This document shows positions 45,011-47,338 of a stretch of DNA of 64,000 nt, piece by piece. How positions within the stretch are numbered: the stretch's first letter is position 1; each line of letters opens with the position of its first letter. The notes beneath the pieces were generated by a model, which made no database searches, had not been told where the DNA came from, and saw only the letters and a program-made list of their open reading frames with translations. Both the position numbers and the translations under genes were made by a program. The DNA lies in the NCBI RefSeq assembly GCF_900177685.1, contig NZ_FXAY01000004.1:186001-250000 (forward strand), given 5' to 3'. This DNA comes from Agreia pratensis (GTDB lineage Bacteria; Actinomycetota; Actinomycetes; Actinomycetales; Microbacteriaceae).

Positions 45011-46084
45011 GTGGCTCTCACTATTGCAATCGTCGGTCTGCCCAATGTCGGCAAGTCCACCCTGTTCAACGCCCTGACCAAGAATCAGGTGCTCGCGGCG
45101 AACTACCCGTTCGCGACCATCGAGCCGAACGTGGGTGTCGTCAATCTGCCCGACGCGCGGCTCGCCGCTCTGGCCGAGATCTTCGGAAGCGAGCGCATCC
45201 TGCCTGCCCCTGTGTCATTCGTCGACATCGCCGGCATCGTCAAGGGTGCGAGCGAGGGCGAAGGCCTCGGCAACAAGTTCCTCGCGAACATCCGTGAAGC
45301 GGATGCGATCGCCCAGGTCGTGCGCGGATTCACCGACGAAGACGTGGTGCACGTCGACGGTAAGGTCGACGCCGCGAGCGACCTCGAGACCATCAACACC
45401 GAGCTGATCCTCGCCGATCTCCAGACCCTCGAGAAGGCGGAAGCTCGCTTCGAGAAAGAGGTCAAGGGCAAGAAGGCCGACCCCTCGACTCTCGTCGCCG
45501 TCAAGGCTGCGCGCGAGTGGCTCGACACGGGCAAGCCGTTGTCGGCCTCGACGGTCGACCTCGAGCCGATCCGCGAGCTCGGACTGCTGACGGCCAAGCC
45601 GTTCATCTACGTGTTCAACATCGACGAGGGTGTTCTGGGCGACAAGGCAAAGCTCGATGAGCTCGCCGCTCTGGTCGCCCCGGCGCACGCGATCTTCCTC
45701 GATGCCAAGCTCGAGTCGGAGCTCATCGACCTTGACCCGGCCGACGCTGCTGAGCTGCTCGAGTCGACCGGCCAAGAGGAGAGCGGCCTCGACCAGCTCG
45801 CCCGCATCGGCTTCGACACGCTCGGACTGCAGACCTATCTCACCGCTGGCCCGAAAGAGACCCGCGCCTGGACGATTCCGAAGGGCGCGAAGGCGCCTCA
45901 GGCCGCCGGCGTGATCCACACCGACTTCGAGAAGGGCTTCATCAAAGCTGAGGTCATCGGCTTCGAAGACCTCGTGGAGACCGGCTCGATCGCCGAGGCC
46001 CGCGCGAAGGGCAAGGCCCGCATCGAGGGTAAGGACTACGTGATGCAGGACGGCGACGTGGTGGAGTTCCGCTTCAACGTCTGA
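45011..46084 (+). CDS. ychF: Redox-regulated ATPase YchF (Obg-like)
   Basis: A 357-aa P-loop protein that prefers ATP and binds the ribosome/proteasome-related factors; involved in stress and translation. G1 GLPNVGKSTLFNALTK, G2/G3 regions (NYPFATIEPNVG, FVDIAGIVKGASEGEGLGNKFL), the atypical G4 FNIDEG and a C-terminal TGS domain ending QDGDVVEFRFNV. GTG 45011 matches the usual MALTIAIVG start. The last 37 bp before the stop are duplicated at 47287-47323, pointing to an integration event at this gene's 3' end. Confidence 0.94.
   Translation: MALTIAIVGLPNVGKSTLFNALTKNQVLAANYPFATIEPNVGVVNLPDARLAALAEIFGSERILPAPVSFVDIAGIVKGASEGEGLGNKFLANIREADAIAQVVRGFTDEDVVHVDGKVDAASDLETINTELILADLQTLEKAEARFEKEVKGKKADPSTLVAVKAAREWLDTGKPLSASTVDLEPIRELGLLTAKPFIYVFNIDEGVLGDKAKLDELAALVAPAHAIFLDAKLESELIDLDPADAAELLESTGQEESGLDQLARIGFDTLGLQTYLTAGPKETRAWTIPKGAKAPQAAGVIHTDFEKGFIKAEVIGFEDLVETGSIAEARAKGKARIEGKDYVMQDGDVVEFRFNV
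46046..46082 (+). repeat. Direct repeat copy 1 (3' end of ychF), att-like
   Basis: 37 bp identical at 34 positions to 47287-47323; the last 22 bp (46061-46082) match perfectly. Both copies encode the YchF C-terminus QDG(D/Y)VVEFRFNV followed by a stop codon. Such gene-restoring repeats are typical of site-specific integration into a gene end. Confidence 0.85.
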
Positions 46085-46108
46085 GGTTCTGAAGTGACCG
46101 AGAACCTC
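46083..46108 (+). terminator. Hairpin directly after ychF
   Basis: Perfect 8-bp stem GAGGTTCT / AGAACCTC with a 10-nt loop, starting at the ychF stop codon and followed by GTGTTT. Either the ychF terminator or part of an integration-site structure. Confidence 0.55.
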
Positions 46109-46132
46109 GTGTTTCAGGACATCGAGAGCCCG

Positions 46133-46363
46133 GTCCTCCTGACACTATGGAGATAATCAAACAGGTCGGGCTGACCTTTCTGCAAGAACGGCTGCGAAGG
46201 CCATCCCCGCTGGCATCGGTGTCGTGTTCAGCGGTTCGACCAACTACGTACTGGCGACGGAGTTCCGTCGCCGTCTCAGCGCCATCGAGCTGGGTGGCCT
46301 AGCTCGATTGATCGACGTGCCGGAGGATGGAGTTGATAGCGTGGCCCCATGGTTTACGACGTA
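46133..46363 (+). pseudogene. Truncated reading frame, C-terminal remnant (possibly EcsC-like)
   Basis: From a stop codon near 46137 a frame stays open to TAA near 46361 without a good start. It reads like protein: about 70 residues including RADLSARTAAKAIPAGIG and STNYVLATEFRRRL. The segment KAIPAGIG...GSTNY is reminiscent of the C-terminal part of EcsC-family proteins, a weak visual match only. Its end overlaps the start of the HEPN-like gene. I read it as the tail of a gene whose front was lost when the flanking DNA was joined to ychF. Confidence 0.4.
46337..46342 (+). promoter_or_regulatory. -10 box (TAGCGT) for the HEPN-like gene
   Basis: TAGCGT followed by 6 nt and the ATG at 46349, leaderless spacing. 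It lies inside the truncated frame, so the gene could be expressed independently of ychF. Confidence 0.45.
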
Positions 46364-47257
46364 ACGCATCATCGGCAGGAACGACTCCGTGCGATCGCAC
46401 GATGGACTGAGGTTGGTGTGTTAGAGCGGCGCTCCCAGTTACCGATCGAGAAGGCATTCGCGGATAGGGTTGCAGAGAGGTCCACCACTTTCTTTAAGCC
46501 AGTAAATACAAACGACGTCGATTCAGTCACTTTCCATCGTGAGTTGAGCTATCTAATAGACGCCTTCGATTCCCTTCCCTGGCGCGTGGACATTGCTTTC
46601 GATTCGACTTGGAAGGCCTTCGAACTTGAGACTAAAGAAGTTTCCAACGGAAACGCCACGGACCGTCTAAAAGCCACCGCCGCGATTCTCGATTCGGAAA
46701 TAGTCGAGCGGTTGTGCGAGAGCTTCCCAGTCCAGTCTTGTGAGTATCTCTTTGCACGAACCGTTACAGATGTGGTGGATGAAACTGCCGATAATGGGCT
46801 TACGAACAGAATGCTCTACTCGACAGACTCGACTATTCGCCAACTCTTGGATCATCTAAAAGGTGCCTACGGGGACGGCGAATTTGATTCGCGCAGGAAG
46901 GGTGCGCTTCTCCTCCGGCGTGCTCTGCGAGGTGACACCTTAACTTTGGGCGGCGTCGGTGATTTTCGACTAGATACAACTTCGAGGGCGCGAATCCTGA
47001 TTTCGCTCTTCCTGTACACCACTCGAAATGAGCGCTTCCACGGCGCCTCTTTTTCACCGTTTCTAAGCAGCGCGGCAAGCCTCCGCACCTACACGCATCC
47101 TTTCTTTGCGTTCCTGGCGTCGTACTATCTTCTATTGGCCGTGTGGCTAGAAAAGCGTCCGGAGGCGCTGGGTGTGGATCAGGTTGGCTTGCTGAGGTCG
47201 CTCGAAGAGAACTTGAAGACCTCAAACGATGTGTTCGGAGGACATTGGGAAAAGTGA
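46349..47257 (+). CDS. Orphan protein with HEPN-like RNxxxH motif in an inserted cassette
   Basis: 302 aa, not recognised as a named family. Mostly helical by appearance, without signal peptide. In the C-terminal third, an amphipathic helix (ARILISLFLYTT) runs into RNERFHG (Arg226, Asn227, His231), exactly the R-N-x3-H catalytic signature of HEPN ribonuclease domains found in abortive-infection, toxin and CRISPR effectors. It is followed by a second hydrophobic helix (FFAFLASYYLLLAVWLE). The N-terminal half has a conserved-looking SLPWRVDIAFDSTWKAFE. Base composition is about 50% GC in sampled lines, against roughly 65% around it, with many A/T-ending codons. It sits alone between duplicated ychF ends. 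A defence or toxin role is inferred only. Confidence 0.6.
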   Translation: MVYDVTHHRQERLRAIARWTEVGVLERRSQLPIEKAFADRVAERSTTFFKPVNTNDVDSVTFHRELSYLIDAFDSLPWRVDIAFDSTWKAFELETKEVSNGNATDRLKATAAILDSEIVERLCESFPVQSCEYLFARTVTDVVDETADNGLTNRMLYSTDSTIRQLLDHLKGAYGDGEFDSRRKGALLLRRALRGDTLTLGGVGDFRLDTTSRARILISLFLYTTRNERFHGASFSPFLSSAASLRTYTHPFFAFLASYYLLLAVWLEKRPEALGVDQVGLLRSLEENLKTSNDVFGGHWEK

Positions 47258-47286
47258 CACTGGGAGTGCAACCTGACGCTTTTAGA

Positions 47287-47323
47287 CAAGACGGCTACGT
47301 CGTGGAGTTCCGCTTCAACGTCT
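47287..47323 (+). repeat. Direct repeat copy 2 (displaced ychF 3' end), att-like
   Basis: Second copy of the ychF terminus, in the same orientation and still encoding QDGYVVEFRFNV then TAG (47323-47325). Together with copy 1 it bounds 1241 bp of lower-GC DNA. Normal high-GC sequence resumes immediately after it. Confidence 0.85.
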
Positions 47324-47338
47324 AGTCGGGGAAGCCCC

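Follow-up and report, generated by a model that had tools for sequence, protein, structure and literature searches.

Integrons are arrays of small, promoter-poor cassettes, each with one conserved recombination site, that are served by a recombinase acting in trans. Cis-mobilizable elements (CIMEs) are stretches of att-flanked DNA that lack a recombinase of their own and accrete in tandem at the site of an ICE or phage. SCC elements have rlmH as their target gene. The staphylococcal and Enterococcus cassette chromosomes, SCC and ECC, as portrayed in the available text of PMC6222049, are the closest known kind to the DNA described here, which lies behind ychF in Agreia pratensis and other Actinomycetota. 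Both use large serine recombinases and insert where a conserved gene ends (for ECC, PMC6222049), and common to both as well are direct-repeat att sites of about 50 bp, several attR copies in some genomes and variable cargo (same text of PMC6222049). The insert studied here likewise sits between direct-repeat att sites at a gene 3' end, that of ychF, and contains no ccr-type large serine recombinase. The ychF cassettes differ from SCC/ECC in their target (ychF versus rlmH), in their recombinases (phage-type integrases versus ccr pairs), in their much smaller size, in having an integrase at only 6 of 302 sites and in forming arrays across many Actinomycetota genera.

The window, the whole stretch of DNA analysed, comprises 64,000 nucleotides of A. 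pratensis contig NZ_FXAY01000004.1. A preliminary description made from its letters had proposed that a duplicated ychF 3' end flanks a gene-restoring integration. The features of the locus are as follows.

45005..46084, + strand: ychF (start codon picked from the ORF list), with Pfam YchF-GTPase_C and MMR_HSR1 on 44984-46081; its 3' end is the integration site.
46046..46082, + strand: repeat copy 1, the ychF end, attL-like, 34/37 identical to copy 2.
46085..47286, no strand: inserted DNA of GC 0.54, delimited by composition and found, among 60 related genomes, in the window genome only.
46349..47257, + strand: cargo gene, an ORF of 302 aa with a HEPN-like RNERFH at residues 226-231.
47287..47323, + strand: repeat copy 2, attR-like; its right part is the putative displaced ychF end (TAG at 47323-47325) and its left arm is ychF-like.
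47339..47962, - strand: TetR-family regulator (Pfam TetR_N, TetR_C_6), the right flank outside the element, of normal GC.

The two copies are identical at 34 of 37 positions with a perfect core of 22 bp, lie 1241 bp apart from start to start, and both encode EFRFNV plus a stop (TGA at ychF, TAG at copy 2), just as the preliminary description had read them. The window holds no third copy of the 37-mer: the best other matches were 23/37 upstream and 21/37 downstream, set against a maximum of 24/37 in 200 shuffles of the downstream DNA. The lower GC that had been claimed for the intervening DNA is in fact the lowest of any 1200-bp stretch in the window (0.542 near 46101; window mean 0.652, sd 0.021), and GC3 is 0.58 in the cargo ORF versus 0.86 in ychF and 0.84 in the TetR gene, with which sequence of normal composition resumes after copy 2, again as claimed. 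A gene-end footprint is therefore present in the window. Its lack of an integrase was also correctly noted, as the insert has no evident recombinase or integrase remnant and its sole long ORF has no family match.

The 302-aa cargo protein encoded by that ORF gave no match in Pfam, PADLOC or NCBIfam. Two homologues (54% and 39% identity) were found in 396 genomes of the order; for both, the 20 kb fetched contained no ychF and no tail site. Viral contigs and plasmids yielded no relatives. R226, N227 and H231 are invariant across the three homologous sequences and belong to an RNxxxH motif (RNERFH, 226-231) that we take to be HEPN-like. HEPN ribonucleases combine an RX4-6H motif with a four-helix fold. 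The structure model is helical (mean pLDDT 61.8, residues 229-246 below 50), and no solved structure was credibly close to it.

A 2-kb query run against 60 related genomes hit the insert DNA in the window genome only; in the seven same-genus relatives just the ychF part was matched. One ychF end per locus was seen in all seven (G005 covers less than 1 kb behind ychF), so the second copy and the gene are not general in the genus; the preliminary description had held that their presence in all close relatives would count against it. The final 27 bp of copy 2, up to its stop, are identical to the native ychF end of G005, which is what a displaced original tail should look like. Behind ychF the seven relatives carry at least four kinds of DNA. 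The TetR neighbour of the window is absent from that position in all seven, and no empty site with the same flanks was found. Of the empty sites that had been suggested as a check, we thus have insert-free loci in the genus and a filled/empty pair in other genera (below), but not the window's own.

This variability of the entire region behind ychF, together with a copy 2 left arm that is ychF-like over 12 bp (10 identical), would also suit recombinational import, in which foreign DNA with a ychF-like end entered by homologous or illegitimate recombination at ychF. We regard import as unlikely. Left of the shared GTS-GTG codons, the similarity of copy 2 to ychF lasts for about 12 bp and does not extend further into ychF, stops are retained in both tails, and the same footprint recurs across many genomes, with integrases. 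The position at which the similarity ends also ruled out copy 2 as the remnant of a full second ychF, a case that the preliminary description had raised against itself.

In Actinomycetota, integration recurs at the ychF 3' end. Of 398 family genomes, 160 matched an exact 24-bp pattern of the ychF tail, 17 of them with two or more copies (the window genome is one of these; in another the copies are on both strands, and in three they are spread over different contigs), and the reversed control of the pattern matched none of the 398. In the regions fetched, which were picked from among the matches listed and not at random, tandem tail copies lay 0.4-11 kb apart and the distal copies had a common left arm that is not ychF sequence. 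The attachment site spans about 50 bp and consists of the left arm AGA.GTT..TC.GT.ACGGAAC, the core GGTGGAGTTCC and a right arm that is the ychF tail to the stop. This canonical site occurred in 11 of 54 loci chosen for a single exact match (a set that omits L089-L092 and genomes chosen for several matches) and nowhere in the 935,254 bases of the same loci read backwards. A pattern excluding native ychF found at least 118 stretches in named genomes. The 80 titles among the matches listed were Actinomycetota throughout, judged by name, with the genera Microbacterium, Arthrobacter, Cryobacterium, Brachybacterium, Brevibacterium, Rhodococcus, Amycolatopsis, Saccharopolyspora, Nonomuraea and Propioniferax and one Mycobacterium MAG among them. 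Sixteen array genomes were searched whole; 15 matched the exact pattern, at one locus each, the exception being G779 with one additional match elsewhere that lacks a stop codon.

The 128 distinct sites from named genomes gave the consensus AGA.GTT..TC.GT.ACGGAACg[T/C]GGTGGAGTTCCGCTTCAACGT.T(A/G)(A/G). Their logo is conserved from about -24 to +24 and flat beyond; positions -24 to -6 had been left free by the search pattern, yet are conserved. An in-frame stop follows 119 of the 128 sites even though the distal copies belong to no gene, which fits a site that must rebuild ychF. Integrons have attC hairpins that recombine as single strands; here, inspection by eye showed only a short inverted repeat (CGGAAC/GTTCCG).

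Other cargo between the same repeats had been suggested as a check and proved abundant: 252 canonical sites, up to five per locus, delimit 163 cassettes, 153 of them distinct (named and G-handle loci overlap as L024/L130, L039/L144, L081/L129 and L030/L164, and the counts 252, 302 and 163 are not all independent). Cassette length has a median of 1268 bp, with 5th and 95th percentiles of 0.5 and 4.0 kb, and only seven cassette pairs are common to two loci end to end at 70% coverage. Cargo ORFs, set by a length rule and in some cases antisense, formed 229 clusters, and 136 ORFs were scanned with Pfam and PADLOC. The commonest Pfam families in these 136 were TetR (6), short-chain dehydrogenases (5), GNAT (5), HTH_3 (5) and AAA_21 (3), and the PADLOC model matches included AriA, AbiL, PtuA, AbiU and AbiE, some perhaps through shared domains only. 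A nine-member cluster is presumably a HigA-like protein. This spread of matches indicates that the cargo is mixed and not solely defence.

Several comparisons bear on movement. G130 is filled and G008 empty, both in genera other than that of the window, and the G130 DNA past its last site aligns with the G008 DNA directly behind ychF. The alignment (88% over 736 bp) begins within the core. The tail at the last G130 site is the native G008 ychF tail, and G130 ychF now has a different, AT-richer one. Judged by this alignment, the pair is a case of gene-restoring integration, seen outside the window's genus. Thermocrispum municipale (Pseudonocardiales) and Brachybacterium massiliense (Micrococcales) have a cassette in common, 98.9% identical over 1899 bp, with the identity stopping in the two cores and the outer arms differing. 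This cassette ending at sites and the filled/empty pair support movement as units. Another cassette is third in the L030 array and first in the L081 array (81% over 600 bp). Among blocks shared between named loci (at least 88% identity and 400 bp, same-genus pairs counted), 61 of 114 internal ends fell within 60 bp of a site, versus 73 of 2280 random positions.

A look for recombinases at the site in other genomes had also been suggested, and both serine integrases and two tyrosine integrase families were found there. Seven viral contigs carry a ychF tail. Four of them (L227, L228, L229 and L231) have a large serine integrase gene whose start lies on the side of the left arm, 34-44 bp from the core, and which reads away from the site. 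All four integrases have Resolvase and Recombinase domains. In the 213 bacterial loci with their 302 canonical sites, a serine integrase or fragment adjoins six (L122, L133, L162, L165, L195 and L204), so most cassettes have no integrase of their own; in L108, L126, L156, L214 and L301 (the last two being the same place) a serine integrase lies 1.7-7.3 kb off the site. Homologues of the L227 integrase were also sought by protein alone in 349 family genomes, giving 10 at E<=1e-60. Six of these have a ychF tail at the integrase start (L318, L323, L324, L325, L326 and L327), three with the alternative ychF ending FNN, and the other four loci (L319-L322) have no site near the integrase. A serine integrase start thus stands beside the site in 16 cases: 4 viral contigs, 6 bacterial loci and 6 family genomes.

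A simple claim that this whole integrase branch targets ychF is weakened by the three Microbacterium phages examined, SuMoo, Caron and UtzChips, whose integrases are among the closest in isolated phages (45-48% identity over 75-78%) and have no ychF tail at their start. A resident serine recombinase in every array genome was rejected as well, since 5 of 31 genomes (G013, G171, G210, G407 and G358) have no PF00239 match yet carry second copies. Integrase action in trans on most cassettes would be the simplest reading. Host XerC/XerD, candidates because the window genome has only two PF00589 proteins, were set aside as the recombinase once serine integrases had been found beside the site. In L231 a tyrosine integrase lies on one side of the site and the serine integrase on the other, which had made the former a candidate for the canonical cassettes; it was dropped because the serine gene adjoins the site in L227, L228 and L229, records in which PF00589 has no match, and the tyrosine family was therefore treated as a separate class.

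The window insert itself is small and atypical. It has a ychF tail with stop at both ends, as a serine-integrase ychF cassette should, but copy 2 does not have the canonical left arm. On a left-arm matrix, which was built from sites of one pattern with a fixed AAC and favours that form, copy 2 scores -9.4; 127 of the 128 canonical sites (mean 14.8) score higher, as does every one of the 16 integrase-adjacent sites (0.0 to 26.0). Copy 2 falls outside the canonical class and scores like native ychF ends (mean -7.2). On sequence grounds, this left arm counts against placing the window insert in the main serine class. The footprint of gene-end integration proposed in the preliminary description therefore stands for the site as a class, but the window's second copy is unlike the serine-integrase cassettes in its left arm. 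The canonical site was found in none of six same-genus loci, and second copies resembling that of the window occur in L022, L037 and L038. In the window genome, PF00589 matches two proteins (309 and 327 aa, on contigs C1 and C10, the window being on C5), presumably XerC and XerD judging by their size, and PF00239 matches three, all on other contigs; a protein search of this genome found no close relative of the L227-type serine integrase.

Insertion by a tyrosine integrase using a longer ychF-end copy, instead of the serine class, is accordingly an alternative for the window, possible though in our view somewhat doubtful. It would account for the likeness of copy 2 to ychF over 37 bp, left as well as right of the core, and two families supply precedents. 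A tyrosine integrase of about 250 aa in L233, L310, L311 and the satellite phage MulchRoom adjoins ychF-end copies of 42-66 bp, but a search run without a positive control found no relative of it (L310 query) in 349 family genomes, the window genome included. The 388-aa family of the L231 tyrosine integrase, represented in viral contigs by that protein only, had matches in 11 of the 299 family genomes searched. Four of these carry it at the ychF end or close by: G161, G283, G320 and G202, in the last of which it is 6.5 kb behind. In G161 and G283, however, the distal copies share about 15-18 bp with ychF, fewer than in the window. The same two genomes carry integrase-bearing elements at the site, of 10.5 kb in G161 and 5.1 kb, with a broken integrase, in G283. 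With the presence of the site on phage contigs, they lend something to the view that the insert is what deletions left of a larger prophage or island, formerly equipped with its own integrase at the ychF end. We consider such an origin quite improbable, as integrase-less cassettes of this size are usual, the serine integrase being so rare at the sites, and no phage-like gene is evident in the insert. Our preferred reading, which we hold to be probable, is that the window insert is a small, non-autonomous element that site-specific recombination put at the 3' end of ychF.

Under this preferred reading the element would itself carry a copy of the final ~24 nt of ychF, rebuilding the gene and displacing the original tail to the far end; the final bases of repeat copy 1 would then derive from the element. 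Phages, or rare elements that bear an integrase, would supply the enzyme that moves most cassettes in trans. As the logo holds no element-specific sequence to the right of the stop, attB and attP should have identical right half-sites. Integration would accordingly yield an attL (native left arm plus tail) equal to attB and an attR (element arm plus tail) equal to attP. With the target restored each time, arrays could lengthen, and excision by the same integrase might need no directionality factor. According to the available text of PMC3783163, standard phage serine integrases require a phage-encoded factor for the reverse reaction. The question raised is whether a serine integrase can bring DNA in and out without such a factor when half-sites are common to attB and attP.

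The ychF arrays are like integrons in consisting of small, promoter-poor cassettes with a conserved site and in probably being served by a recombinase in trans, one cassette protein even having a Cass2 domain. They are unlike integrons in that the integrase, judged by position, is of the serine and not the tyrosine kind, that no fixed integrase gene stands at the array and that the cassettes dock where a housekeeping gene ends. No intI tyrosine integrase was found beside the array, the PF00589 proteins of the window genome lying on the other contigs named above, and integrase HMMs gave few matches in the array loci. With CIMEs the ychF cassettes share att flanks, the lack of their own recombinase and tandem arrangement; they differ in their hundreds of sites with one common arm and in mostly having one or two genes per unit. 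MulchRoom, described in the available text of PMC10690885 as a packaged satellite of 14.8 kb, is unlike the cassettes in that size and in its tyrosine integrase. Its genome has a 43-bp ychF-end copy 85 bp from the integrase start, from which insertion at the ychF site is predicted; the terms ychF and attP are absent from the main text of the MulchRoom paper (PMC10690885). The interval between dnaN and ychF is occupied by a prophage in pneumococcus, but its 14-bp repeat is a different one and is situated in the promoter region of ychF (available text of PMC6375853). The literature covered, which excludes most subscription papers and preprints, held no description of ychF-end cassettes in Actinomycetota, and an earlier account may exist.

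Taken phylum-wide, these sites may represent a serine-integrase counterpart of the integron: an Actinomycetota-wide pool of integrase-less cassettes with attL equal to attB and attR equal to attP, whose arrays at ychF would grow, shuffle and shed whenever an integrase came from a phage or a rare element, and would need no directionality factor to do so. We judge this wider proposal to be evenly balanced between right and wrong. The site model predicts where the satellite phage MulchRoom integrates and gives a rule for finding mobile cargo behind ychF, including defence, toxin-antitoxin and uncharacterised genes among others. If the proposal is true, a large part of the phylum would have integron-like cassette sharing based on the other recombinase class, and the end of a housekeeping gene would be its permanent docking site.

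A second family of elements at the ychF 3' end is marked by a tyrosine integrase gene of a 388-aa type that is convergent with ychF. The family was found in four genomes (G161, G283, G320 and G202), and part of its integrases are broken. The elements lie in the following fetched loci, coordinates being those of the locus.

L281, 9478-11724: element with 388-aa-type tyrosine integrase
L287, 10339-12018: element of the same type
L276: element of the same type
L045: element of the same type

The Streptomyces satellite phage MulchRoom also carries a ychF-end copy of 43 bp near the start of its tyrosine integrase gene, and the encoded enzyme shares 95% identity with the integrase of the viral contig L233. 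The terms ychF and attP are absent from the main text of the MulchRoom paper (PMC10690885).

L314, 3416-3600 (phage record 7270-7454): ychF-end copy near the MulchRoom integrase start

The Agreia pratensis genome encodes a further large serine recombinase, which shares 31-33% identity with the ychF-site integrases. No ychF tail was detected near it within the 14 kb fetched.

G000 contig C6, 73369-73812 (L296, 6440-7810): large serine recombinase

G008 (L025, L026) has three inverted ychF-end matches of 85% close to contig starts, which may reflect an assembly effect or a real duplication. In G129 (L033) a near-perfect palindrome 2113 bp behind ychF consists of two ychF tails facing each other.

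One cassette (L163, 5784-6647) encodes a protein with AraC-type HTH, GyrI-like and integron-associated Cass2 domains. The YchF C-terminus itself is apparently altered at two loci, ending in EFRFGSTSTSKG in L073 and in EFRFAL in L089, and each altered terminus was probably contributed by an inserted cassette.
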